Origin: an uncultured Poribacteria bacterium
GTDB lineage: Bacteria; Poribacteria; WGA-4E; WGA-3G
Length of the DNA stretch: 64,000 nucleotides
Reading direction: 5' to 3'
Assembly (NCBI GenBank): GCA_951812525.1
Contig: OX638316.1
Span: 4,520,506-4,584,505 of the forward strand
Every line of letters begins with the position of its first letter. The stretch's first letter is position 1. The position numbers and the translations under genes are program-made. This document shows positions 5,231 to 64,000 of this stretch, piece by piece. The notes under the pieces are model-generated. The model had not been told where the DNA came from. It worked only from the letters and a program-made list of their open reading frames with translations, and made no database searches.

Positions 5231-6160
5231 ATGAAGGAACTTCTTAATATGGGCATGACATCTTCACCTGAGAAGTACCTTGCCCACCTCATTACAGAAG
5301 AGGAACGCACGTTTTTTGAAGAGCAAGGTTATCTGTACATTCCGAACGCACTCTCTACAGAGATGCGCGAACAACTGGTAAATGTTGTAGACACCTTACA
5401 CAACAAAGCCCTCGCTAGTGGCAGAGCGAAGCCCGATTCGCAGTGGGGTTGGTCAGATTTCTTAGGCGCTGATGATGCGCTCTTAAATCTCGTCGATCTG
5501 CCGACGACGTTGCCGAAAGTGTGGGGCATCCTAGGATGGAATATCTATCTATACCACGCGCACATGCACGTAAAACCGCCAGCACCGGCGGAAGCCGAAG
5601 AAGGCGAAGGTTGGCTGGAGTGGCACCAAGACAGTGGGCGCGTTAACATTGAATTGGAAACTGATCCACGTCCGCGTTTGTCGCTGAAAGTGGCGTATTT
5701 TTTGACAGATGTCTCTGAACCTGGACGTGGAAACTTCTACATCCGCCCGGGCAGCCATATCAAGTCAGATATGTCCGTCCCATTAGCCGAAATTGCCCGA
5801 GATCCGCGTGAAGCGACTGCGGACGATGTCCCTGACGATGCTATGCCGGTCTGCGTAGAGCCTGGAACGGCTGTTCTGTTCGATAGACGGCTCTGGCACT
5901 CCCGGAGTCCGAACCACTCTCAAATGACTCGGAAGGCACTCTTCTACGGTTACGGCTATCGCTGGATTCGTCCTAAAGACGAAATGTCGGTTGAACCTCT
6001 CTACGAACGCTGCGATCCGATTCGTCGGCAGTTGCTGGGGGCAGCCACCAGAAATAATGGACGCTACGTTCCGTCCGAAGAAGACGTACCGCTCCGTGGG
6101 TGGCTCATTGACAATCTCGGTGACAACCCGGCTTATGCAATGGGACCGCGACACGCTTAG
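5231..6160 (+). CDS. phytanoyl-CoA dioxygenase (PhyH) family protein
   Basis: This is a 309-aa Fe(II)/2-oxoglutarate dioxygenase of the PhyH family. It has the iron-binding HxD in EWHQDSGR (near residue 133), the distal His in RRLWHSRSPN (near residue 222), and nearby Arg residues suited to hold 2-oxoglutarate. It would hydroxylate an unknown small molecule or side chain in the cytosol. A strong AAGGAGG site precedes the ATG. A clear terminator follows, so the transcript that may begin at the isomerase gene ends here. A second, more divergent PhyH protein is on the other strand at 11348-12070. Confidence 0.88.
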   Translation: MKELLNMGMTSSPEKYLAHLITEEERTFFEEQGYLYIPNALSTEMREQLVNVVDTLHNKALASGRAKPDSQWGWSDFLGADDALLNLVDLPTTLPKVWGILGWNIYLYHAHMHVKPPAPAEAEEGEGWLEWHQDSGRVNIELETDPRPRLSLKVAYFLTDVSEPGRGNFYIRPGSHIKSDMSVPLAEIARDPREATADDVPDDAMPVCVEPGTAVLFDRRLWHSRSPNHSQMTRKALFYGYGYRWIRPKDEMSVEPLYERCDPIRRQLLGAATRNNGRYVPSEEDVPLRGWLIDNLGDNPAYAMGPRHA

Positions 6161-6173
6161 TCTCTGAGTTCTC

Positions 6174-6205
6174 AAGGCGAGGTCGAGTACCTCGCCTTTT
6201 TCTTT
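6174..6205 (+). terminator. rho-independent terminator
   Basis: A 9-bp perfect stem AAGGCGAGG / CCTCGCCTT with a 7-base loop is followed directly by a T-rich run. It lies 14 bases after the PhyH stop codon. Confidence 0.9.
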
Positions 6206-6306
6206 TCAAGATGTGAGGCTCGACTTGATTATTTCTGAATTTCTGGGTATAATTAATATAGATATTTTAAGGATAAAAATTGCACGTTTTCACAATGGAG
6301 GAAGAA

Positions 6307-7233
6307 GTGGCTAGAAAAAAAATCAGTGTTATCGGTGCAGGGAACGTCGGTGCAACAGCGGCGTTTCTGATTGCACAAAAACAACTTGGAGATGTCGTCC
6401 TAATAGACATCGTTGATGGTGTTCCGCAAGGCAAGGCATTGGACATGGCACAAATGGGTCCGGTAGAATTGTTTGATGCCGCGGTTGATGGAGACCTAGA
6501 TTACGGTGCAACGGCAGGCTCCGATTTAGTAATTATTACATCAGGATCCCCACGTAAACCGGGGATGACGCGCGAAGATCTGTTGCATACGAATGCTAAT
6601 ATTGTCGGCAGTGTCACAGAAAACGTCGTGAAACAGTCGCCAGATTGTATTATCATGATGCTCACGAATCCGTTGGACATCATGACATATCATGCGTGGA
6701 AGGTCTCAGGGTTTCCTTCACACCGCGTTGTGGGACAGGCGGGGGTGTTGGACTCGGCAAGATTCCGCTATTTCATATCTCTTGAACTCGGCGTATCTGT
6801 AGAGGATATTCATGCCCTCGTCCTCGGTGGGCATGGCGATACGATGGTTCCACTCCCACGTTATACGACTGTCAACGGTATCCCGATTCCACAACTCATA
6901 CCGGAAGATCGCATTGAAGCGATGGCACAGCGCACTCGCGATGGCGGTGCTGAGATCGTTAACCTTCTCAAAACGAGTGGCTATTATGCTGCGGGTGCCT
7001 CATTAGCACAGATGGCAGAGGCTATCATCCTTGACAAGAAACGTCTGCTGCCCTGCTCGGCACACCTCACCGGTCAATACGGCATTGATGATCTTTATAC
7101 CGGGGTTCCCATCAAACTCGGCGGAAACGGTGTTGAAGAGATTATCGAAATTGAATTAACTGAGGACGAACTCGGTTTCTTACAGCATTCGGCACAAACT
7201 TATCGGGAAGGCATTGCGTTGTTAGGATATTAG
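6307..7233 (+). CDS. mdh: malate dehydrogenase
   Basis: This NAD-dependent enzyme interconverts malate and oxaloacetate. The protein (308 aa from this start) opens with the Rossmann motif ISVIGAGNVGATAA. SPRKPGMTREDLL carries the Arg residues that select malate over lactate, and the TNPLD strand and the catalytic His in LGGHGDTMVPL are present. It belongs to the LDH-like MDH type. The GTG start was chosen because GGAGG sits 5 bases before it and the family usually begins a few residues before ISVIGAG. An ATG at 6295 and a TTG at 6280 (behind AAGGA) are possible alternatives that add 4 or 9 residues. The gene follows a terminator, so it has its own promoter. Confidence 0.93.
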   Translation: MARKKISVIGAGNVGATAAFLIAQKQLGDVVLIDIVDGVPQGKALDMAQMGPVELFDAAVDGDLDYGATAGSDLVIITSGSPRKPGMTREDLLHTNANIVGSVTENVVKQSPDCIIMMLTNPLDIMTYHAWKVSGFPSHRVVGQAGVLDSARFRYFISLELGVSVEDIHALVLGGHGDTMVPLPRYTTVNGIPIPQLIPEDRIEAMAQRTRDGGAEIVNLLKTSGYYAAGASLAQMAEAIILDKKRLLPCSAHLTGQYGIDDLYTGVPIKLGGNGVEEIIEIELTEDELGFLQHSAQTYREGIALLGY

Positions 7234-19366: not shown

Positions 19367-19424
19367 ACGACAGACGACTAATTATTGTATTGCTGAATGT
19401 AACGTAAAACGACTTTTGTCGGGT

Positions 19425-21764
19425 TTATCTTTCACAGTCATTGTCTCTTTTCTTTGGCAGTGCATACACACCCCTCCGGACTTTCACTACCTCACCAATA
19501 TCCACGAGACGCTTGAGTTCATTTCCTACAGACTGCGGACTACTCCCAATAGCTGCAGTGATTTCTGATTTTCTTTTTTCGCCATCAGATAGAAGCGCGA
19601 GGATCTGCTCTTGGAAACTGACGCGTGGAATGTTGCCGCCCCTAAGCCTTTGTAGTACATAGTTTGCCATCCTCGCCGAGCATCCCAAAACTCGCTCTAT
19701 CTCCTGTCTGCTGGATTCAGGGGTTAGATTGTCACGTTCTCTTTCAAAACGTTCACGCCTCGTTATTACTTCAGAAAGCTTGTCCAATCCGCCAGCGATC
19801 TCGAAATCTTCCCAGTCAAAAAGGAGGGTCTCAGGTCTATTGGTAATGCCGGGCAATGGCATCCCCGTGAGCAAGGCAACTGTCTTGTTCGACGATCGGT
19901 TTAACCCTGTTCGACCTAAAATCTGTGTAAGGAGGCCAACAACATTCTGTTCATATAGCCCTTGGATTCGTTTGTCTGTATAACAGTAAGGATTAAATTC
20001 TACATCATAACACAGGGGTTCTTCATCGTCTCCAAACAAAATCCGTGCTTGCTTCCACATGAGATGCGGGGGCCAGTGCGGTGCGCCGATGATCCAAATT
20101 ACATCTGCCAGTTCAAACGCACTCCGCCATCCTTCTACATGGATTGCTCTTTTGATATAGCTCAGGGTCCGGACGTTTTCCATTAATGTAAGATCTGCCA
20201 CTTCTGCAGCAGCATCCTGATTACAAATGAGGAGGTGTTGAACATTTGGATCTCTCCCAATTTCTGTGTGGATACCCGAAAAAAAGCGGTGCCCGATTTC
20301 AGAGAGCCCGAAATCATCCCAACTGTTCTCGTAGTTTAAAATATCATGCGAAGAATAAATACCCGTGCGAATCTGAAAAACTCGGTTTCCTGATAGCCCA
20401 GGTTCCAATTCACCGATTTTCACCTTATCTGGCACTGTGTTTTCGCCATTTGGGACTACTGGCACCCAGAACCGCAGCACGCCTTGGTCCCATACCATCG
20501 GCGCATCGGCATCCCGCTGGTAATGCTGAAAAAAATGCTGCAGTTGGTGCCACAATGTCCGATTTGGATTATCTTCGCGCATCTGCTGGATAAGCGTTTC
20601 CGCCTGTACCTCAAATGCCTGCATTGTCATGCGGACACGTCTAACAGGATTCTCATAAAGTTCGCTTTTGCTCTCTAAAGCGTTCAATAAGACTTTCGCA
20701 AAGCTCCGTAAAGCACCCTCTTGCTCGTTGGCACTCCATGCATCTAATACATCTTTCGATATACCGATTTCGGCAAAGAGTAGAGGGACATCTGTTTCGT
20801 CGACGGCATACAGCCATCCCGTTTTTTCGTCGTGTTCGAGAACCTGCAAAGTAGAATCCCTTCGCACCGTACCATCATGTTCCAACTTGGATAACACCGG
20901 ACTTGGACGTTTTATCGCCAACGGACTGAGTTTGCCTTCTCTTATCGCAATCACCTTCTCATCTACAGGTGCTGCCACTGGTGGCACAGTAGGCGTTTCT
21001 TGAACAACGGGTTCCGAATTAGCTCCCGCTGGTGGTGCAGGTTCGTGTAGTGTATCCCGAAGCGCGTCAATCGGAATAAAGAGGATTTCTTTAGTCATGA
21101 TAGGTGGGTCTAACAGATTACCAAGGAGAATCTCATAACGCGTGTCCCAGCGGCTATGTCCTCTTTCTCCAAGGATTTTGAGATATACGTCACGGTGATA
21201 CGGATTATCCGCGGTCGGTATGTGTTTGTGGATATATTCCTCTGCTGGCTCGGTATTCGGATGAAGGTAATCTAAGACTCTGCAAGAAAAGCGGAGTCCA
21301 CCAGAATTTGTCAACGTCAATAGTGGATTCGTGACAGCGTTAACGAGCATCTCAATACAGGCAAGAACAGCATCGGGGGCGGCAGAAATCGCATCATACT
21401 TGAAATCGAGGTCGTGCCATTGCGCACCATCGCGTCCCGAAGGCGTGCCGGTATAAATCTGGATGCCCCACGATGCGAACCATCGTCTGGGTCTCCAGTC
21501 TCGCGTGCCTTGTCGTTTTAGGAAGCGTTCACCGCCAAAATCTTTGGGGGGATGCTCTGCCTCGGGCGCGTGTCCTATTGGCATAAAGGAAATATTTGCC
21601 TGCTCGAGGTCATAGAGTCTCACCGGACACCCTCGCGCGCAACGAACGATGAAGTGATAAGGATAGTCCCTGTGGAGTACGGGTGTTACGACTGTTCTTC
21701 GCTGCCGAAGTAACGCATTGTGCTGTTTGTGACAACGTTGAATGATATTTCGTAAAGCCTTCAT
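19425..21764 (-). CDS. primase/helicase-like protein, short form
   Basis: The product (779 aa) is not assignable to a named family with certainty. Residues 1-240 (opening KALRNIIQRC) include WGIQIYTGTPS, WHDLDFKYDAI and SGGLRFSCRV, a spacing that recalls archaeo-eukaryotic primase/prim-pol cores. After a linker (SPLAIKRPSPVL), the C-terminal half has VIWIIGAPHWPP, YTDKRIQGLYEQNV and ILGRTGLNR, resembling the second half of DinG/XPD-type helicases including motif VI. The last 90 residues are two winged-helix units ending KVRRGVYALP. No Walker A motif was found. It lacks about 300 internal residues present in the paralogue at 50735. The start was set by alignment with that paralogue; a further 40 in-frame codons exist upstream. 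Confidence 0.6.
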   Translation of the reverse strand: MKALRNIIQRCHKQHNALLRQRRTVVTPVLHRDYPYHFIVRCARGCPVRLYDLEQANISFMPIGHAPEAEHPPKDFGGERFLKRQGTRDWRPRRWFASWGIQIYTGTPSGRDGAQWHDLDFKYDAISAAPDAVLACIEMLVNAVTNPLLTLTNSGGLRFSCRVLDYLHPNTEPAEEYIHKHIPTADNPYHRDVYLKILGERGHSRWDTRYEILLGNLLDPPIMTKEILFIPIDALRDTLHEPAPPAGANSEPVVQETPTVPPVAAPVDEKVIAIREGKLSPLAIKRPSPVLSKLEHDGTVRRDSTLQVLEHDEKTGWLYAVDETDVPLLFAEIGISKDVLDAWSANEQEGALRSFAKVLLNALESKSELYENPVRRVRMTMQAFEVQAETLIQQMREDNPNRTLWHQLQHFFQHYQRDADAPMVWDQGVLRFWVPVVPNGENTVPDKVKIGELEPGLSGNRVFQIRTGIYSSHDILNYENSWDDFGLSEIGHRFFSGIHTEIGRDPNVQHLLICNQDAAAEVADLTLMENVRTLSYIKRAIHVEGWRSAFELADVIWIIGAPHWPPHLMWKQARILFGDDEEPLCYDVEFNPYCYTDKRIQGLYEQNVVGLLTQILGRTGLNRSSNKTVALLTGMPLPGITNRPETLLFDWEDFEIAGGLDKLSEVITRRERFERERDNLTPESSRQEIERVLGCSARMANYVLQRLRGGNIPRVSFQEQILALLSDGEKRKSEITAAIGSSPQSVGNELKRLVDIGEVVKVRRGVYALPKKRDNDCER

Positions 21765-22122
21765 AGTGAATAAAGATTTGTCGAAACCGCTGTTTTCGCA
21801 CGAGTTATGTGATTCCCAGGTTGCTTTCCTCTTAGGTCGCAACTCAGATAACAGTAGTATAGCATAATTGACACAAGAAGTCAATGAAATCGAGAACGTA
21901 TCCCGATTTGGTGGGTTTGTAGACGATAGGAACGATGTCCGTTAATATTCCAGATCAACATCGCATGCTTTTTTTTTTGAATTATGTCTTAAAAACTGCT
22001 ATAATAATACATATTAAGAAATAAAAAATAATTTTATAGTATTTTTTTTAACTTCTTGATATGTTTAATATATCCTATCCGAGTTTTTGCTGAAAATGGA
22101 ATAAATATGAAAGGTAAATCCA
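21765..22122. other. AT-rich divergent control region
   Basis: This is the gap between the divergent primase/helicase-like gene and the 90-aa gene. Bases 21965-22085 are strongly AT-rich with long T and A runs. The matching gap before the paralogue (50365-50734) is also AT-rich. Promoters for both directions are expected; no box is certain and no iterons were seen. Confidence 0.4.
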
Positions 22123-22395
22123 ATGCCAAGCGGTATTATTATTACAAATAAAGAATATACATTCCAAGAAGCTGCGCGTCTCCTCGCGCGGGCACTCGCA
22201 TCAATCGTTGACATAAATAATGAGACAACCTTCTCAATGGCAGACATATTATGTATGCTCCGTAGTGTGAATGAGCGTGTTTCAGGTGAGTTTGAAATTC
22301 AACGAACTCATTCTCATCACTATCAGGTTGTTTACAGACCTAAAGAGGAGGTGGTTGAGAGTTTCAAGGAAAGATGGGAAGGTTTCATTGAATGA
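22123..22395 (+). CDS. small protein of duplicated cassette, copy A
   Basis: A 90-aa soluble protein of unknown function. It has a helical N-terminal half (YTFQEAARLLARALASI) and a GEFEIQRTHSHHYQVVY segment near residue 55. It is nearly identical in layout to the 90-aa protein at 63302 and shares the same domain with the first 90 residues of the next gene (GEFEVRQTPSRYIHIVY). Its stop overlaps the next start by 4 bases (ATGA), so the two are translationally coupled. GAAAGG lies before the ATG. Confidence 0.75.
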   Translation: MPSGIIITNKEYTFQEAARLLARALASIVDINNETTFSMADILCMLRSVNERVSGEFEIQRTHSHHYQVVYRPKEEVVESFKERWEGFIE

Positions 22396-23021
22396 AAAGC
22401 AAGATCTTTATAGAAGCTGGTAAGCAGTTGACCTTGACAGAATACATCTCTATTGCTTCAAGGACAATGTCGCTAATCGGTGAGGCTGCAAAAGACATCA
22501 AGGAGATAGACGCAACTTTCTCAGTAAACGACCTCGTCGTGCTACTCAACAAAATATGTGTGCACATGGCAGGTGAGTTTGAAGTTCGCCAAACCCCTTC
22601 TCGCTATATTCATATTGTTTATGCACCAGATGTTCTTGATGAAGTAGGGTTTGACGAAGGATTCATGGTCAGTAACTTTGTAGACGCGCAGGATCGGGGT
22701 CAGAACCCTCTCTGGATTAATGAAAAAGTTGTTTTTGCCTTCATAGATCGAAAACTCTATGGAGTCGCCACTATGATCTATTTTTATCTCGGCTACCTAA
22801 TGACGCAGGATGAAACGTTTGGATTATCACATAATATCTCTTTTGAAAAGATTCTGGAGGGTTGCAGTCAGCTTCCAAAAGATTTCCCTGTGAAGCATCC
22901 GACGACCCTTATGCGTGCGCTTGCAGATCTTCAGGATGCTGGGCTCATTAGGTGGAATGCAAAATCACACACTTTTGAGTTACTTCACATAACGCCGTAT
23001 GACCCCAATAAAAAGGTTTAA
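22392..23021 (+). CDS. winged-helix-like protein of duplicated cassette, copy A
   Basis: The product (209 aa) begins with the same domain as the upstream 90-aa protein. It then adds about 110 residues (VVFAFIDRKLYGVATMIYFYLGYL ... TTLMRALADLQDAGLIRW). That extension has the helix pattern and the turn-to-wing GLIRW of a winged-helix DNA-binding fold, as in plasmid or phage replication initiators. A second, truncated copy is at 63571 and an internally deleted relic is at 32563. No family name can be given; a DNA-binding regulator or replication protein is the best inference. Confidence 0.7.
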   Translation: MKSKIFIEAGKQLTLTEYISIASRTMSLIGEAAKDIKEIDATFSVNDLVVLLNKICVHMAGEFEVRQTPSRYIHIVYAPDVLDEVGFDEGFMVSNFVDAQDRGQNPLWINEKVVFAFIDRKLYGVATMIYFYLGYLMTQDETFGLSHNISFEKILEGCSQLPKDFPVKHPTTLMRALADLQDAGLIRWNAKSHTFELLHITPYDPNKKV

Positions 23022-23034
23022 CAAAGTATCTATC

Positions 23035-23244
23035 ATGCAACAACTGGCATCCTTCATTCAATTACCATCGGCACCAATGCAGGTGATTTACAACACAATC
23101 CAGCAGGTTGGAAGATCAAACATACCGTTCTTCATTACTGGCGAAACCGGTGTCGGTAAGGAAGGCGTCGCAAGATACATTCATGAAATGGGTATTGTAA
23201 ATATTTTAAAGTGTAGCACCGAGTTGTTGAGAGTCCACAGATAA
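23035..23244 (+). pseudogene. truncated sigma-54 activator ATPase
   Basis: The reading frame from ATG 23035 gives MQQLASFIQL, then a Walker A motif in FFITGETGVGKEGVARYIHE. This is the opening of an AAA+ sigma-54 interaction domain as in NtrC-type activators. After about 53 residues the similarity stops, the frame closes at 23244, and no Walker B or DNA-binding domain follows. It sits 13 bases after the cassette and may be what is left of a third cassette gene. Confidence 0.7.
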
Positions 23245-23257
23245 CTGTCGAGAAACC
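23214..23257. repeat. 44-bp repeat shared with 30400-30443
   Basis: TAGCACCGAGTTGTTGAGAG continuing through CCACAGATAACTGTCGAG is found at 30400-30443 with about one difference. Both copies read through as ESPQITVE in one frame, so it may be the shared remnant of one decayed coding sequence. Confidence 0.6.
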
Positions 23258-23298
23258 TGCTGAGTGCTTGGTTTCCGCGTGTGTTTCTGTAAAAGCAA

Positions 23299-23562
23299 AT
23301 GAGATCCAAAGACATGTACGAAGATCCTAAAACAGTCGCAGCGTTAGGTATCGCTTATCTTGAATCGGCGATTCTTGAAGTCATGAGGGATCAACCCCTA
23401 CGCCCCATCGAGATTTCCCAACGTCTCGGGATTACCAGTTATCCGTTTGACGATGGGAAAAATGGGTTTGCGATGATTCACGGATTGCTACGAAAACTCG
23501 CCAGTGAAGGACGCGTCGAACGGTATCACAACGGAGTGCGCTGGAAACGTACCGACGGCTGA
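23299..23562 (+). CDS. small winged-helix protein
   Basis: An 87-aa basic protein with helices at ESAILEVMRD, PIEISQRLGI and MIHGLLRKLASEGRVERY, ending in a wing with GVRWKR. This is a typical winged-helix DNA-binding layout, as in small regulators or HTH parts of larger enzymes. The first ATG was used; ATG 23314 would remove 5 residues. It follows the truncated activator and precedes relic DNA, so it could be a leftover, but the frame is intact. Confidence 0.55.
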   Translation: MRSKDMYEDPKTVAALGIAYLESAILEVMRDQPLRPIEISQRLGITSYPFDDGKNGFAMIHGLLRKLASEGRVERYHNGVRWKRTDG

Positions 23563-23599
23563 TGACTGGCTGACAGTGGATCGTTAATGAACGCCTTAT

Positions 23600-23629
23600 G
23601 GGAACAGATTTGATACCCTATCTGTTCCC
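23600..23629. repeat. 30-bp hairpin repeat, copy 1
   Basis: The left arm GGGAACAGAT, loop TTGATACCCT and right arm ATCTGTTCCC form a perfect 10-bp stem. An almost identical copy with the same loop is at 32320-32349, and the bases CTTAT also precede both. Conserved stem and loop in unrelated positions suggest a repeat family rather than a terminator. Confidence 0.7.
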
Positions 23630-23652
23630 GCCTCGCACTTAAGGAGAACCTA

Positions 23653-24199: not shown

Positions 24200-24841
24200 A
24201 TGAAAAAATTACTCTTTCTACTTTTGGTTTCAATAGGTGTCTGCCTTTTTTCCGTAACACAGAGTTCTGCACAGCAGAACACAAACCCATTAGACGATCT
24301 ATTCGATAACCGGTGGCGCGGTTTGTTCTTAGGTGGAGCGGTCAGATACGGAATAACTCAATCAGGATTGTCTGTTTTGGCAGATCGGTTTAATGAAGAC
24401 GATAAGTTTGACAATTCAAATAGCCGTAGTATGTCGGGAGGCATACAGTGGCGGCTCGGATACGCGGTTTCAGAAGATATGGGATTCTATATCACATCGC
24501 CGTTCCTATCGGTGCAACCAGCATTCGGTGTGCTATTATTTAGCCAAAAATATTCAAACACTTACTACACCGTGCAGCTCGGATACACAAGAATGGCTGC
24601 TTCTTCAAGAATTACAGCCGCAAATTTCGACCAATATATTCTCACAGCAAGTAACACGCCGGCTGACGCTTGGACCTTTAACTTAGGGATCGGTAACGAA
24701 TTTCGACGACGCTACGCGTTTGAACTCACAGCCGGGTTCAGTCGAATAACGATTCCTAATGCGTATTGGGATTCGGGTTTTCGCAATTTGCATCTAAACG
24801 AACTATCCCTCTTTGCTTCGTTTAATTATTGGCTCTACTAA
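24200..24841 (+). CDS. secreted outer-membrane-like protein
   Basis: The product (213 aa) has a clear signal peptide (MKKLLFLLLVSIGVCLFSVT, cleaved near SSAQQ). Alternating polar/hydrophobic strands with aromatic ends follow (GIQWRLGYAVSEDMGFYI, YYTVQLGYTRM, LSLFASFNYWLY), ending in an aromatic residue. This pattern is that of a small beta-barrel outer-membrane protein. No family could be named. It precedes the MORN-repeat lipoprotein by 29 bp on the same strand, so the two are probably co-expressed. Confidence 0.65.
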   Translation: MKKLLFLLLVSIGVCLFSVTQSSAQQNTNPLDDLFDNRWRGLFLGGAVRYGITQSGLSVLADRFNEDDKFDNSNSRSMSGGIQWRLGYAVSEDMGFYITSPFLSVQPAFGVLLFSQKYSNTYYTVQLGYTRMAASSRITAANFDQYILTASNTPADAWTFNLGIGNEFRRRYAFELTAGFSRITIPNAYWDSGFRNLHLNELSLFASFNYWLY

Positions 24842-24870
24842 AAACATTTGATTTACACATACGGAGGTAT

Positions 24871-25845
24871 ATGAAACAGATGAAATTGAGGTTACGAAAC
24901 TTTATACTACCGCTTACGCTACTCTACGTATTGTGCTTGTGTTTCTTAGGATGTTCTGCTGATGAGGAAGCGAGCCCATCGGACACGTTGCTCCCTACTG
25001 GCGCAGATCTGGAACAATTAATTGCTCAAGCATTAGACGCGGATAAGTTGCAGACTCGCGGTCCATCGGGCGAAAAACTTTTTTACCAACCGAATCAGGA
25101 AACACCTTATACAGGATGGGTTAAAGACTACCACGACAGTGAAGATGAAGATCTCTGGTCACTCGTCCAGGTGCGCAACGGTAAACTTCATGGTCCAGCG
25201 ACATATTGGTATGAAAACGGGCAGAAAGATGAAGAAGGCACATATACAGACGGTCAACGCGATGGTGCCTGGACATTCTGGTATAGAAACGGGCAGAAAG
25301 ATGAAGAAGGCACATACAAAGACGATGAACGCAATGGTGCCTGGACATTCTGGTATGAAAACGGTCAGAAGGCAAGAGAAGGCACATACAAAGACGATGA
25401 ACGCAATGGTGCCTGGACATTCTGGTATGAAAACGGTCAGAAGGCAGGAGAAGGCACATACAAAGACGATGAACGCAATGGTGCCTGGACATTCTGGCAT
25501 GATAATGGGCAGAAAAGTAGAGAGGGCGCATACAAAGACGATGAACGAAATGGTGCTTGGACATTCTGGTATGAAGAAAACGGACAGAAAATGGCAGAAG
25601 GCACATACAAAGACGGTCAACGCGATGGTGCCTGGACATTCTGGCATGATAATGGGCAGAAAATGGCAGAAGGCACATACAAAGACGGTCAACGCGATGG
25701 TGCCTGGACATTCTGGCATGATAATGGGCAGAAGCGCGCAGAGGGCGCATACAAAGACGGTAGACGGGTTGGTACGTGGAGTGTCTGGACGGAAAATGGT
25801 CAGAGGGATTGGTGGATACAGGACAGCCTGCCAGACCTGCCATGA
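24871..25845 (+). CDS. lipoprotein with MORN_2/YwqK-type repeats
   Basis: The 324-aa protein has a lipoprotein signal (LCLCFLGCS, Cys near residue 27). From about residue 103 it carries nine consecutive 24-residue repeats built on GAWTFWYENGQK..EGTYKD, the MORN_2 pattern that is found in YwqK-like proteins. Lipidation would place it at the cell surface or periplasm. The start was put at ATG 24871 because GGAGGT precedes it and the signal peptide begins there. The repeats are nearly identical in DNA (72-bp unit), so copy number may vary between strains. Confidence 0.8.
   Translation: MKQMKLRLRNFILPLTLLYVLCLCFLGCSADEEASPSDTLLPTGADLEQLIAQALDADKLQTRGPSGEKLFYQPNQETPYTGWVKDYHDSEDEDLWSLVQVRNGKLHGPATYWYENGQKDEEGTYTDGQRDGAWTFWYRNGQKDEEGTYKDDERNGAWTFWYENGQKAREGTYKDDERNGAWTFWYENGQKAGEGTYKDDERNGAWTFWHDNGQKSREGAYKDDERNGAWTFWYEENGQKMAEGTYKDGQRDGAWTFWHDNGQKMAEGTYKDGQRDGAWTFWHDNGQKRAEGAYKDGRRVGTWSVWTENGQRDWWIQDSLPDLP
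25177..25809 (+). repeat. 72-bp tandem coding repeat
   Basis: Nine units of a 72-base period encode the MORN_2 repeats. The central units differ by only a few bases, and one contains an extra codon (YEENGQK). The outermost units are diverged. Confidence 0.85.
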
Positions 25846-32006: not shown

Positions 32007-32319
32007 TCCGCTCAAGGTTGATGGTTATGTTGTTGATAACTTGGAGTGTCTGTTGAGAAACTCGCTGATCAGCACGCTGTAAACACGGACGAATCTATGT
32101 TTCGATCATGACGAATAGACCCGCACGCTGATTTACGGGCGCGATTTTGCCTTCCGTTCTTTTCTCCAAGTGGTCTGTCGGGAATGTGCATTTAACATTG
32201 TTAGCAGCAATGACTCGCTTTGCAGGTTGTGCGGGCTCCAAAAACAACCTGCATTTACAACTAACTGCAGGTGTAGGATTCATCTCTGAATAATGGTTGC
32301 TGATTGCCAATCATCTTAT
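32007..32319. other. decayed DNA, nothing assignable
   Basis: Short open stretches in several frames (for example VHNLSDPLKVDGYVVDNLEC) suggest former coding sequence, but no family could be recognised. Confidence 0.3.
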
Positions 32320-32349
32320 GGGAACAGATTTGATACCCTGTCTGTTCCC
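32320..32349. repeat. 30-bp hairpin repeat, copy 2
   Basis: GGGAACAGAT, the same TTGATACCCT loop, and GTCTGTTCCC differ from copy 1 at 23600 by one base, which leaves a G-T pair at the loop end. Confidence 0.7.
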
Positions 32350-32356
32350 ACCTTAT

Positions 32357-32535: not shown

Positions 32536-32712
32536 AATGGGAGAGCTTTATTGAATGAAAAACCAACCCTTTATAAAAGTGGGTCCCCAATTAACGTTCG
32601 ACCCTTATGCGTGCTCTGGCAGATCTCCAGGATTCGGGGCTTGTCAAACGTAAAAACACGCACCTTTGAGTTGCTTCATATAACACCGTATGATCCCAAC
32701 GAAAAGGTGTGA
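32536..32712 (+). pseudogene. internally deleted relic of the 90/209-aa cassette
   Basis: Bases 32540-32565 (GGGAGAGCTTTATTGAATGA) match the end of the 90-aa gene and its ATGA overlap. Then MKNQPFIKVGPQLTF matches the start of the 209-aa protein. The sequence then jumps to a match with its last 40 codons (LMRALADLQDSG ... FELLHITPYDPNEKV) ending at TGA 32710. About 450 bp are missing and the frame is lost. Confidence 0.85.
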
Positions 32713-50734: not shown

Positions 50735-53700
50735 ATGATGAATGCCTTGAAAGATATAATTCAACGCTGCCACCACCGCCACGAGAAGCCGCTTCGACAG
50801 AAAAAGACGGTTGTCACCCCTTCGGCTTACAAGGGGATCCATCACCAGTTCACGGTCTACTGTGCGCAGAGATACCCTGTCAGACTCTATGACTTAGAGG
50901 CGGCAGGGATTTCCTTTATGCCAGTAGGCGGGGGTCCTGAACGCGATAGAGTTCCACGATCTTTTGGTGGTGAACGTTTTTTGAGCCGTCAAAAGATCAT
51001 AGACTGGGAAATCAGACACTGGCATACATCGTGGGGGATCCAGATATATACAGGCATACCTTCCGAACGCCATGGTGCCCGATGGCACGATTTTGAGTTT
51101 ACATACGAAGCGATCTGTGCGGCACCCGAGGCGGTCTTGGCTTGTATTGAGACCCTCGTCAATGTTGTTGGGAATCCGTTGTTGACACTAACGAAGTCGG
51201 GTGGATTGCGCTTTTCTTGCAGGGTCCTAGATTATCTGCATCGGGACACTGAAGAGGCGAGGCTGTATATCTATAAGGATGCCCCGACACCGGAAGATCC
51301 GCACCATCGGGACGTGTATCTTGAAATCCTTGGAGAAGCCGGACACAGCCCTTGGGATGCCCGCTATGAGCTGCTCCTCGGAGACCTATCAAATCCGCCT
51401 ATCATTACCCAAGGCGTGCTCTTTACCGTTATTGATGCGCTCCGATCCGAACTGCATGCACCGCAATCGCTTCGACCAGAAAGACCTGTACCAACCTCGG
51501 AAGCTGTTATCACGCCCGAACCGTCTCTGGGTTCATATAAGTTGGATCTGGCAAAAGAGGCGTTTTTGAATCGTGGTTTTACTTATATCAAATCAGAGCA
51601 GAATTTACACCACTGGACGGTGCGTGATAGTGCGGATAACGCCGTAGATGTCATGTTATGGGAGACGGATGGCAGTGTGTGGATACGCGCAATCACGTCT
51701 GATCTTGGACTCCCGACGGAAAATACACTGATTACCGATGTTTGGGACGATACGGGCATTCTGCCACCGATTACTGCGGACCCTCCTGTTTCTGATACGA
51801 CGATCGCTGTACGAGAAGGAACACTTAGCCCGTTGGCAATTAAACGTCCTTCCTCGGTGCTACAAAAATCGGAAGCTACTGAGAGAGTTTACGAGCCACT
51901 GGAAAAGAATATCGGTCAGATAAAGCGGGTCTTTGAGACCGATAAGCGCATTATTGGACTTGTTGCCGAGACGGACGCAAAGGGCACCTATGAAGTGGAA
52001 TCGCAGCTTCTGAAAAATGGCACAGTCGCTTACAGTTCAGTCTTCTCAATAGTAGAAGAAGCTGCAGCGCACTTCCAAAGACAAAACCTACCATCCATTG
52101 CACGCTGGCGGAATGTGAATTTCTTGTGGAATCAGGTAAAAGAGATACCTGTTGAGGTTCGGATGGCAAATCCATTTGAGCGGGGAAATGTCTGTGAGGA
52201 TCCCGAGCGGTTCTTAGCACTCGTAAGCATGGGCGTGAATGTGAAAGAAACCCTCTGTCCAGAGTGTCCGGTCTATACAGCGTGCCAAGAACGTGGGTAT
52301 TTATCGCAGCCTGCTACATTGCAACGTGCCAAGACACAGATGTTTGGGTTCCACCAAACGTTTTTGAATCCAGATCAATTGGCACTATCAGAAAAAATTC
52401 TTCAACCCCTCAACGACACGGAACGCCTTTGTATTGTCGGTTCAACGAAATCGGACGGTTTTTTTGAGGAGTGTCGTATATCGATGGAGAGATTAGAAGA
52501 ATGGTGTGAAAACTGGCGCGGAGATGCATTAGGGAACTTCGCACAGGCTTTAATGAACACACTCGAAATCGATAGCGAACCTGATGATCCAGTTATTAGA
52601 CGCGTCCGCACAGTCATGTGGGCATTTCAACGGCATGAAGCAGAAATCGTTAGGCAGATGTGTCAAGTGAATGTGAGAGGCAAGGTGGTCGGACGAGAGG
52701 TCGTTGATGACGAGACCGGAACGAAGTTGGCACGGTTTGGGATTGCGTTTGAAAGCGGTGCTTTTGCTTACATTCCTCTCAATAGTAGTACTGCGGATAA
52801 ACTCATGGCGAGGGGGCTACCGGTTTTTGCACTTGAATCCTTTGGAGTTGACAAGGACATGAGAATACCGATGACAATTGAACGCGCCATCGGATTAGGT
52901 ATCTTGGATATAGCAACGGTCGAGAAGATTCAGGAATTTCCGAACGTCTATCAGAATCCCGACTGGACGTTTTGGCATCAACTCAAGCGTTTCTTAGCGC
53001 ATTATACCCGCGATACCGATGCACCGATGATATGGTTTGACAAGGTCCTACAATTCTGGGTGCCACCGGTGCTACATCCGAGTATCAAACGGCTTTTGTT
53101 TATGTCATCAACGTTGTCTCAGCAGGATCTCCGTAAAGCGTTTCCAAGTGAAGCGATAGAATTTATTGATATCAATCCGACCCCGTGGGTCACCGGAAAT
53201 CAAGTTTTCCAGATTCGGTCAGGTGTCTATACACTCAAAACGCTGCTGGACTACAACAGCACCTGGGACGTTATTGGACTGTCTAAAATAGGAGAGCATC
53301 TCCTTCTAGGTATCTGGGCAGAAATTGAGAGAGATCCGAGCGTTAAACATGCCATTATTACCTATCCGGCAATTATCGAACAACTCAGAGACATCGCAGA
53401 TAAAGAGAATGTCTGTTTGCTGAGAGAATTTCAAAATCTGAACAATTCAGAGGCACCTTTTGAAGCATCAGAGGTTGTTTGGATCGTCGGCACACCGTTT
53501 TGGGAACCGGGCGTCACATGGCGGCGAGCGCAAATCTTATATGGTAACGACGGGGAACCGCTCTGTTATGAAGCAGACACAGAATTCCAACACTATAAAG
53601 ATGAACGCGTCCAGCGGATTTACACACAGACCGTTGCAGAGTTAATCACAGACATTGTCGGACGTGCGGGATTAAATCGCTTGAGGGGTAAAAAGGTGGT

Positions 53701-54145
53701 ATTGATTAGTAGCCTTGAAATCCCGGACATTACTGACCAACCTGAGACGCTCCTTTTTGACTGGAAGGATTTTGAAGTCGCCGGCGGACTGGACAAACTT
53801 GCTGAGACAATATTGATACGCCAACGTTTTGAAGCAGAACGCGACCAGATAACTGTTGATACCAGCAGGCAAGAAGTCGAACGGATCTTGGGATGCTCAT
53901 CACGTCAGGCAAACCGGACGTTAAACAAACTGCGGGGTGGCAACATCCGACGTGTAACATTCCGTGAGCAAATTTTTACGCTTTTAGCTGATGGCGAGAA
54001 GCAAGCAGCTGACGTCGTTGCAGCTATTGATGGAAACTCCGCAGCGATATATCATGAACTTAGAAGGCTTGCCAAAATTGGGGAGATTCAAAAGGTTCGC
54101 CGGGGTGTCTACGCACTCCCAGAAACATCTCCGCCCGAAGAGTAA
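50735..54145 (+). CDS. primase/helicase-like protein, long form
   Basis: The 1136-aa protein is a full-length paralogue of the one at 19425. The N-terminal 250 residues (NALKDIIQRC, WGIQIYTGIPS, WHDFEFTYEAI, SGGLRFSCRV) resemble a prim-pol core. A middle part absent from the shorter form carries a cysteine set (CEDPERF, then CPECPVYTACQERGYL, residues about 486-525) that could bind zinc or an Fe-S cluster. Residues 740-1040 look like the second half of a DinG/XPD helicase: LLFMSSTLSQQ near 788, VVWIVGTPFW, YKDERVQRIY, and VGRAGLNR near 975 as motif VI. Two winged helices end the protein (KVRRGVYALP). No Walker A was found. A replication or mobile-element role is inferred only. Confidence 0.6.
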   Translation: MMNALKDIIQRCHHRHEKPLRQKKTVVTPSAYKGIHHQFTVYCAQRYPVRLYDLEAAGISFMPVGGGPERDRVPRSFGGERFLSRQKIIDWEIRHWHTSWGIQIYTGIPSERHGARWHDFEFTYEAICAAPEAVLACIETLVNVVGNPLLTLTKSGGLRFSCRVLDYLHRDTEEARLYIYKDAPTPEDPHHRDVYLEILGEAGHSPWDARYELLLGDLSNPPIITQGVLFTVIDALRSELHAPQSLRPERPVPTSEAVITPEPSLGSYKLDLAKEAFLNRGFTYIKSEQNLHHWTVRDSADNAVDVMLWETDGSVWIRAITSDLGLPTENTLITDVWDDTGILPPITADPPVSDTTIAVREGTLSPLAIKRPSSVLQKSEATERVYEPLEKNIGQIKRVFETDKRIIGLVAETDAKGTYEVESQLLKNGTVAYSSVFSIVEEAAAHFQRQNLPSIARWRNVNFLWNQVKEIPVEVRMANPFERGNVCEDPERFLALVSMGVNVKETLCPECPVYTACQERGYLSQPATLQRAKTQMFGFHQTFLNPDQLALSEKILQPLNDTERLCIVGSTKSDGFFEECRISMERLEEWCENWRGDALGNFAQALMNTLEIDSEPDDPVIRRVRTVMWAFQRHEAEIVRQMCQVNVRGKVVGREVVDDETGTKLARFGIAFESGAFAYIPLNSSTADKLMARGLPVFALESFGVDKDMRIPMTIERAIGLGILDIATVEKIQEFPNVYQNPDWTFWHQLKRFLAHYTRDTDAPMIWFDKVLQFWVPPVLHPSIKRLLFMSSTLSQQDLRKAFPSEAIEFIDINPTPWVTGNQVFQIRSGVYTLKTLLDYNSTWDVIGLSKIGEHLLLGIWAEIERDPSVKHAIITYPAIIEQLRDIADKENVCLLREFQNLNNSEAPFEASEVVWIVGTPFWEPGVTWRRAQILYGNDGEPLCYEADTEFQHYKDERVQRIYTQTVAELITDIVGRAGLNRLRGKKVVLISSLEIPDITDQPETLLFDWKDFEVAGGLDKLAETILIRQRFEAERDQITVDTSRQEVERILGCSSRQANRTLNKLRGGNIRRVTFREQIFTLLADGEKQAADVVAAIDGNSAAIYHELRRLAKIGEIQKVRRGVYALPETSPPEE

Positions 54146-62685: not shown

Positions 62686-62931
62686 GTGAAACTCCTTCTT
62701 GGTAAAGTGCTAATAGAGACGGATCATATTGAGATCGTCGAAAAGATTGCGCCACATACGGTGAAGATTGTCTTTGTGTCTGGCAATACACTGGAAGTGC
62801 ATTGTGGTATAAAATCATCTTCACCTGCCGTTTGGGATCAAGAGGCAGACAGGTTCATCCAAACGATCCAGAATGTCGATGGCGTGCTTGACGAACGAGT
62901 TTGGCAGAGCGCATCACTGATCCGTGAGTAG
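62686..62931 (+). CDS. small hypothetical protein
   Basis: An 81-aa soluble protein from GTG 62686 with AAGGAAA upstream. The strands VLIETDHIEIVEKI and HTVKIVFVSGNTLEVHCG suggest a compact beta fold, then a helix (DQEADRFIQTIQNVDGVL). No family recognised. It is separated from both neighbours by about 300 bp. Confidence 0.5.
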   Translation: MKLLLGKVLIETDHIEIVEKIAPHTVKIVFVSGNTLEVHCGIKSSSPAVWDQEADRFIQTIQNVDGVLDERVWQSASLIRE

Positions 62932-63301: not shown

Positions 63302-63574
63302 GTGCCAAAAGACCTTTTTATCACTGATGGAAAATATACTTTCCAAGAGTCTTCAGATCTTCTCGCGCGTGCAATTGGATCAATCAATGATGAAGACGAG
63401 GACACAGCTTTCTCAATAACCGACATACTCTGTCTGCTCCGCAGTGTGAACGCGAATGTCCCAGGTGAGTTTGAAATTCAACGAACACATTCTCATCACT
63501 ATCAGATTGTTTACAAATCCGAAGACGAAGTAGTTGAGAGTTTCAAAAAAAGATGGGAGGGCTTTATTGAGTGA
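63302..63574 (+). CDS. small protein of duplicated cassette, copy B
   Basis: A 90-aa product closely similar to that at 22123 throughout, including YTFQESSDLLARAIGSI and PGEFEIQRTHSHHYQIVY. The start is GTG behind AAGGAG. Its stop overlaps the next start by 4 bases (GTGA), keeping the same coupling as in copy A. This conserved arrangement supports both genes being real and acting together. Confidence 0.78.
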   Translation: MPKDLFITDGKYTFQESSDLLARAIGSINDEDEDTAFSITDILCLLRSVNANVPGEFEIQRTHSHHYQIVYKSEDEVVESFKKRWEGFIE

Positions 63575-64000
63575 AAAACGAACTTTTTATAGAAGCTGGT
63601 AAGCAATTGACCTTGACAGAATACATCCCTATTGCTTCAAGGACAATGTCGCTAATCGGTGAAGCTGCAAAAGACGTCAAGGAGATAGACGCAACTTTCT
63701 CAGTAAACGATCTCATCGTGCTACTCAACAAGATATGTGTGCACATGGCAGGTGAGTTTGAAATTCACCAAACCCCTTCTCGCTACATTCAAATTGTTTA
63801 TACACCAAATGTTCTTGATGAAGTAGGATTTGACGAAGGGTACATGGTCAGTGACTTTGTAGACACGCAGGATCGCGAGCGGAATACCCTCTGGATTAGC
63901 GAAAAAGTCGTTATTGCCTTCATAAATCGAAATCTCTATGGTATAGCCTCCATGCTCTATTTTTACCTCGGATACCTTATGACGCAAGACGATGCTTTTG
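63571..64000 (+). CDS. winged-helix-like protein of duplicated cassette, copy B, cut by window end
   Basis: About 143 residues are visible, closely similar to the first two thirds of the 209-aa protein at 22392 (IEAGKQLTLTEYIPIASRTM, AGEFEIHQTPSRYIQIVY, SMLYFYLGYLMTQDD). The start is GTG overlapping the upstream stop. The predicted winged-helix end lies beyond the window, so it is not known whether this copy is complete or what follows it. Confidence 0.78.
   Translation, partial: MKNELFIEAGKQLTLTEYIPIASRTMSLIGEAAKDVKEIDATFSVNDLIVLLNKICVHMAGEFEIHQTPSRYIQIVYTPNVLDEVGFDEGYMVSDFVDTQDRERNTLWISEKVVIAFINRNLYGIASMLYFYLGYLMTQDDAF

Follow-up and report, generated by a model that had tools for sequence, protein, structure and literature searches.

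A Poribacteria gene pair linked to a sigma-54 activator: candidate front part of a dispersed three-gene operon

Control in trans of sigma-54 activators without a sensor domain is on record for PspF, restrained by PspA, and for HrpS, restrained by HrpV (PMC7057263). The locus described here resembles the PspF-PspA and HrpRS-HrpV systems in that an AAA+ activator (bEBP) without an N-terminal regulatory domain is adjoined by small genes, here called a and b, which by their position are candidates for control in trans. As partners that would bind and inhibit the AAA+ domain, a and b are candidates by position only, and PspA and HrpV have no demonstrated homology with them. Moreover, unlike in those systems, the linked activator is often broken here, and its loop reads GAFTSA. 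Over the AAA+ part of the bEBP the closest PADLOC model is that of the RtcR-type activators (RtcR_PspF2, CARF-AAA-HTH; E 4e-91), but the match starts at model position 170, the CARF domain is absent, and rtcAB neighbours were not recognised.

Poribacteria are uncultured sponge symbionts with little experimental biology. We analysed a window of 64,000 nucleotides, positions 4520506-4584505 of a genome that consists of a single contig of 5,062,467 bases. The best explanation of the cassette found there is that it forms the front of a regulatory operon of three genes, a-b-bEBP, which is lineage-specific and dispersed in Candidatus Poribacteria. The anatomy of this cassette is well supported; its function we infer. 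(Note that the literature on Poribacteria that was searched, covering sigma-54, regulators and paralogues, mobile and repeat DNA, and XdhC, yielded nothing on the cassette, which does not prove that nothing exists.)

Anatomy, copies and origin of the gene pair

The coordinates and lengths that a preliminary description of this DNA had given for a and b, together with their 4-bp overlap (ATGA), proved exact (Table 1). When the 1.2-kb region was shuffled 500 times (first order), no 209-aa ORF arose, which excludes chance for gene b. The N-terminal domain said to be common to both proteins was borne out by significant reciprocal matches between a and residues 1-80 of b; in particular, gene a of copy A matches b in all three intact loci (E 2.4e-6 to 9.3e-4), and gene b of copy A matches a in all three (E 5.3e-5 to 4.4e-4). 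Neither protein has a family at cut-off in Pfam or NCBIfam, or any in PADLOC, and the best PHROGs match had an E-value of 0.13. The earlier label of an undescribed cassette stands. The activator is of a known kind, and the a/b family is absent from the libraries searched and was seen here in Poribacteria only.

Table 1. Features of the window (positions in the window)
Feature	Position	Strand	Remark
Gene X at copy A	19425-21884	-	819-aa ORF; deletion variant of 1130-aa multicopy Poribacteria family
Sigma-70-like promoter TTGACT-17-TATACT	21856-21884	-	for gene X; consensus match only, 10/12
Sigma-70-like promoter TTGAAT-17-TATAAT, extended -10	21977-22005	+	ahead of gene a; region conserved in G078; consensus match
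Gene a, copy A	22123-22395	+	90 aa; single copy of shared domain
Gene b, copy A	22392-23021	+	209 aa; shared domain at about residues 1-80, winged helix at about residues 120-200 (predicted)
Start of third gene, bEBP up to Walker A	23035-23193	+	matches homologue P0001 (367 aa) over residues 1-53; broken afterwards
87-aa small protein, HTH-like text	23299-23562	+	37% identical relative beside G082 b-bEBP remnant; association uncertain
39-nt piece of dispersed repeat of about 200 nt (hairpin GGGAACAGAT...ATCTGTTCCC)	23595-23633		further occurrences at 32315-32353, behind copy D, and in G078
Fifth, fragmentary copy	32538-32712	+	last six a codons, ATGA (32555-32558), first b codons, deletion, last 36 or so b codons
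Small gene s73, ahead of copy B	62686-62886	+	family also between X and bEBP in G082 and G077
Gene a, copy B	63302-63574	+	90 aa
Gene b, copy B	63571-64000	+	GTG start, GTGA overlap; continues beyond window end

Searches of the genome with a and b recovered three intact pairs and a damaged copy, D (locus L019). Copy A lies within the window, copy B at its right end (complete in L018, where gene b occupies 6077-6706 and is followed by a broken bEBP), and copy C in L017. The genes have identical lengths in the three intact pairs, each of which has a 4-bp overlap (ATGA, GTGA and ATGA), and identity between the pairs is 66-69% for a and 60-80% for b. In copy D, a and b are fused into a hybrid with its junction inside the shared domain, shortened by deletions, and an intact bEBP stands behind it. 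The pairing was kept in all three intact copies, and random placement without pairing was not seen. The gene b profile matches two of the 84 genomes of the phylum, so that b is nearly private; one of the two matches is a remnant in another species of the same genus (G082), in which a frame-shifted C-terminal piece of b lies directly upstream of an intact bEBP. The same profile found no match in one scan of genome contigs or in one of viral contigs. Searches for empty sites of copies B and D in three other genomes (G078, G070 and G083) gave matches to repeat families, X ends and bEBPs only. About 0.9 kb upstream of a, copy C (L017:4319-6298) and copy B (L018:1099-4881) each have a secreted-looking WD40-repeat protein; the two end in a common C-terminal tail, and their similar register suggests segmental duplication.

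At dS values of 0.36-0.86, pairwise dN/dS (Nei-Gojobori, without error bars) was 0.22-0.30 in gene a and 0.28-0.33 in gene b; for the bEBPs it was 0.08-0.19. In a neutral, substitution-only simulation gene b was open in 14, 4 and 0 of 5000 cases at distances of 0.36, 0.6 and 0.85, and the short gene a in 310, 185 and 118 of 5000 at the same distances. Both genes are open and indel-free in three copies; they thus have open frames of identical length and are under purifying selection. Gene b of copy A is a mosaic, which up to about codon 100 is like b of copy B (87-97% in 20-codon windows) and from there on mostly like b of copy C (82-95%). The position of this switch marks the domain boundary as a recombination point, and the mosaic b genes point to exchange between copies.

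The preliminary description had also ascribed a winged-helix-like end to b, and this is backed by an AlphaFold2 model (24 sequences) and by structural alignment. Whole-model mean pLDDT is 53.5; residues 123-197 are modelled as helix, strand, helix, helix and two wing strands, with block pLDDT values of 69 (residues 151-160), 59 (161-170) and 71-79 (171-200). In VIA-align, residues 120-204 matched many winged helices with Z up to 9.5, which is not family-specific. Foldseek returned a best E of 0.11 for b, with none at or below 0.001, and PadR/MarR winged helices appeared there as weak rows only. The C-terminus of b is thus predicted to adopt a winged-helix fold. The model of gene a (22 sequences; mean pLDDT 74.8) has the order helix-helix-strand-strand-helix and found no significant structural match (Foldseek best E 0.28; VIA-align best Z 4.8, to a designed protein).

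A 116-aa protein encoded elsewhere in the genome (L020:6815-7165) matches a with E-values of 4e-4 to 3e-8 by copy. This core protein is present in 67 of the 84 phylum genomes and 11 of the 21 genera, nearly always as a single copy, and all 38 loci of the core domain in contigs of named genomes are titled Poribacteria. Ten core-family members that were scanned had no Pfam or NCBIfam family at cut-off. The core protein, a and the front of b have the same domain, with the motif D-V/I-x-x-L-L-x-x-V-N-x-x-v-x-G-E-F in common, and comparison of the core-family profile with b gave an E-value of 3.6e-5 (probability 71%). The core protein differs from a and b in being single-copy, in lacking a four-residue deletion that the two have in common, and in ending with a conserved tail, LTGRRPSWG, at its C-terminus. 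Because of the common deletion, a and b are most simply regarded as sisters: one derived copy of the core protein would have been duplicated, with b then carrying the C-terminal winged helix. These comparisons show that a and b arose by duplication of a small domain from a conserved single-copy Poribacteria protein. As to the surroundings of the core-protein gene, an XdhC-like gene precedes it in 14 of 14 contexts of one set and in four of six of another, and a PhyH-like gene often comes after it and its relatives; in some genomes (L119, L122, L125) the core protein has an extra N-terminal domain.

The linked activator and its promoters

The cassette had been described as one of two genes, a count that does not hold, as bEBP sequence comes after b in copies A, B and C and after the a/b hybrid in copy D. 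In copy A the frame from 23035 reaches the Walker A motif (GETGVGKEG), similarity to the activator ends past residue 53, and the truncated piece is assigned to Pfam PF14532 (E 1.8e-8). The bEBP of copy B has a deletion and is truncated, and that of copy C is a short remnant with 22 residues matched; the linked bEBP is thus broken behind all three intact pairs. That of copy D (P0001) is intact at 367 aa and matches PF00158 (Sigma54_activat, 6.5e-61) and AAA_lid_14 (1.7e-21), and its AAA+ match begins at residue 12 of 367, the N-terminal regulatory domain being absent. The order of genes in copies A-D, together with the G082 remnant, argues for an ancestral order a-b-bEBP. The a-b pair stayed under selection as its bEBP partner decayed.

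The genome has an rpoN gene (PF04552, E 2.0e-58). The bEBP loop that contacts sigma-54, canonically GAFTGA, is GAFTSA in copy D and its clade. Other variants at the fifth position, GAFTDA and GAFTHA, are listed in PMC4641369 as retaining the ability to activate; the same passage does not mention GAFTSA. Activators matching P0001 at E <= 1e-90 occur in 34 of the 84 phylum genomes, from two genera only, and several genomes have a tandem pair. In a tree, the dispersed bEBPs (those of D, F (L030), G082, G077 and G080) cluster with the upstream tandem member, E1. Activators of the same clade exist in other genomes without a or b.

We scanned 42 distinct bEBP genes (46 rows, four being duplicates of the same gene) for the sigma-54 promoter consensus. 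A perfect TGGCACGAAAYTTGCT lies upstream of one bEBP in 10 genomes, and a version with one mismatch in an eleventh (G080), so that 11 of the 42 genes have it; the perfect match reads TGGCACGAAA(C/T)TTGCT and begins about 50-60 nt before the bEBP gene. No such promoter was found ahead of the second tandem member or at the dispersed bEBPs of D, F, G082 (L143, L185) and G077 (L186). The conserved promoter suggests that the activator gene itself is under sigma-54 control. (The perfect conserved promoter at L029:9463-9479 and its orthologues in L070-L072, L077-L081 and L095 stand before the first tandem bEBP or before a single orthologue.) Within 400 nt upstream of a, none of copies A-D has a sigma-54 promoter with three or fewer mismatches. 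A sigma-54 promoter within the window was considered and rejected, with nine two-mismatch matches against 9.4 expected. The region upstream of a in copy A is AT-rich. Note that the 2-kb region around the sigma-70-like promoters has eight matches to their consensus against 5.0 expected.

Proposed function and competing readings

We read a-b, with a probability of about 0.5, as a regulator pair that most likely controls a headless sigma-54 activator in trans and possibly binds DNA via b; the label of regulator pair, which the preliminary description had offered, is one that we retain. In particular, a and b would form a co-translated pair working as a regulator, would control the activator by analogy with PspA-PspF and HrpV-HrpS, and b would contact DNA through its predicted winged helix. 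The main evidence against a regulator of an activator is the broken linked activator. Since the break is found behind every intact pair, the pair needs no bEBP in cis, which argues that a-b either acts on activators elsewhere or has lost its role; with the linked activator dead, a-b may still act on intact activators elsewhere in the genome. The GAFTSA loop, the bEBPs of the same clade in genomes without a or b, and the lack of a significant structural match for the a model also weigh against this reading. Intact relatives of the activator have their own sigma-54 promoter and copy A has a sigma-70-like one, so that the activator gene may have passed from sigma-54 control to control by a-b. If a-b does regulate a headless sigma-54 activator, it would be a new type of trans-acting partner, from a family that is Poribacteria-only as seen here. 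With the repeated copies, the domain mosaics and the clean contrast between promoters (own sigma-54 as opposed to a-b plus sigma-70-like), the hypothesis can be tested in a laboratory host.

The broken activators would also fit a stand-alone DNA-binding pair that controls its own neighbours, X or other cargo, and is unconnected with sigma-54 activation, the bEBP being a passenger in the course of being lost. Purifying selection on a and b, the divergent sigma-70-like promoters at copy A and the predicted winged helix in b are equally consistent with such a pair; however, the b-bEBP order persists in copies A-D and across two species, and the nearest X is about 9-11 kb away at copies B and C, so that X is not a constant neighbour. 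We regard this as possible, with the odds against it. It is less probable, and in our view unlikely, that the a-b-bEBP block is selfish or dispersed DNA that spread by duplication and is now rotting without present function. Every copy is damaged somewhere, as the fragment at 32538-32712, the hybrid in copy D and the G082 remnant illustrate, and the distribution is patchy (2/84 genomes), but in three copies a and b have remained open without indels, at dS 0.36-0.86 and with dN/dS near 0.3 (a sign of selection that may be past only), b seldom stays open under neutrality, and the mosaics speak for exchange between copies.

Two further readings are very improbable. A weak Pfam match to MksE (b residues 118-199, E 0.03) and the presence of MukE chains among the VIA-align rows (Z 7.8-9.3, rmsd 2.7-5.8 A) raise the idea that b is a MukE/MksE-like tandem winged-helix (kite) protein with a as its small partner. 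The MksE score is 15.1 bits against a cut-off of 27, however, and unrelated winged helices score alike (MCM 9.5, Stn1 8.9); no SMC or kleisin gene was recognised beside b, and across the genome the MksE model picks b alone, at 14.9 bits, below cut-off. This makes kinship with MukE very improbable. We give even less credence to the antitoxin and replication-initiator readings of the preliminary description, for which small overlapping genes, an AT-rich upstream region and a winged helix could be cited. Both are undercut by the database searches, in which neither gene had a match in Pfam at cut-off or in NCBIfam, PADLOC (no toxin or antitoxin) or PHROGs; a toxin partner is absent, and a and b are paralogues of each other, unlike a toxin and its antitoxin. 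As for an initiator, no Rep family match was obtained, and 21700-23300 has no iterons, its sole direct repeat being the domain shared by a and b.

Gene X, exchangeable cargo and neighbouring sequences

The divergent placement of the pair beside a large gene, X, at copy A was confirmed, and its earlier label of primase/helicase-like was not: searches of Pfam, NCBIfam, PADLOC, PHROGs and PDB sequences gave X no match with a meaningful E-value and thus no support for that assignment. (Its conservation line includes a four-Cys cluster, which we take to be reminiscent of iron-sulphur helicases.) The true start of X at copy A is probably the ATG near 21764. Family X (about 1130 aa) occurs in 48 of the 84 phylum genomes and 2 of the 21 genera, and a single genome can have as many as 15 matches. 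It is itself a large protein family still without explanation; it had no match in plasmids, and no common terminal motif was seen at X ends. The two genera belong to one Poribacteria family, known domains are absent, and short deletion variants exist. Further members lie at 50738-54124 (+) of the window and in L190-L194, L019 and L030, with three tandem copies at L193.

In this genome X and a bEBP diverge from each other at A, D and F; the same arrangement occurs at two places in G082, one of which has a large gene in between, and at one place in G077. Among 30 X loci with flanks of up to 1.5 kb, inspected by eye in ORF lists, bEBP or a/b was present only at copy D of this genome, and the seven X copies in L190-L194 have neither within the flanks fetched. 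The bEBP-linked X proteins are not one clade, so that co-inheritance of X with a-b-bEBP is without support. A close relative, G078, has neither b nor the bEBP clade of copy D. It does have this X together with the promoter region, matching window 19424-22082 at 92.4% over 2663 nt. Its promoter leads into an unrelated 943-aa gene, and similarity ends 40 nt before the start of a. Past the break, only a 39-nt piece matches again downstream, and the left flank differs too. This contrast argues that the sequence downstream of the promoter was exchanged in one of the two lineages. A more far-reaching proposal, which we consider doubtful, is that X and its divergent promoter are a mobile unit with exchangeable cargo (a-b-bEBP here, the 943-aa gene at the related X locus of a sister species, s73-bEBP elsewhere). 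On this view, headless sigma-54 activators would have in a and b a new class of trans-acting partners that is confined to Poribacteria, and cargo exchange would have spread and recombined them as domain-wise mosaics.

The s73 family (73-80 aa) recurs beside X and bEBP genes, at window 62686-62886, L185:5387-5605, L186:5754-5972 and L063:5761-5997. A 30-nt palindromic string occurs three times in this genome, always close to an a-b relic; G078 and G083 have it once each, so that 3 of 38 genus genomes contain it. Its sites are window 23600-23629 and 32320-32349, L196 and L200:5830. We rejected this hairpin as an RNA element, as it lies inside a 114-aa reading frame in G078, and treated it as part of the dispersed repeat; Rfam gave nothing except a chance match. 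At window 24829-25845 lies a 338-aa protein with many AEGTYKDGQRDGAWTFWHDNGQK-type repeats, which are MORN-like by eye.
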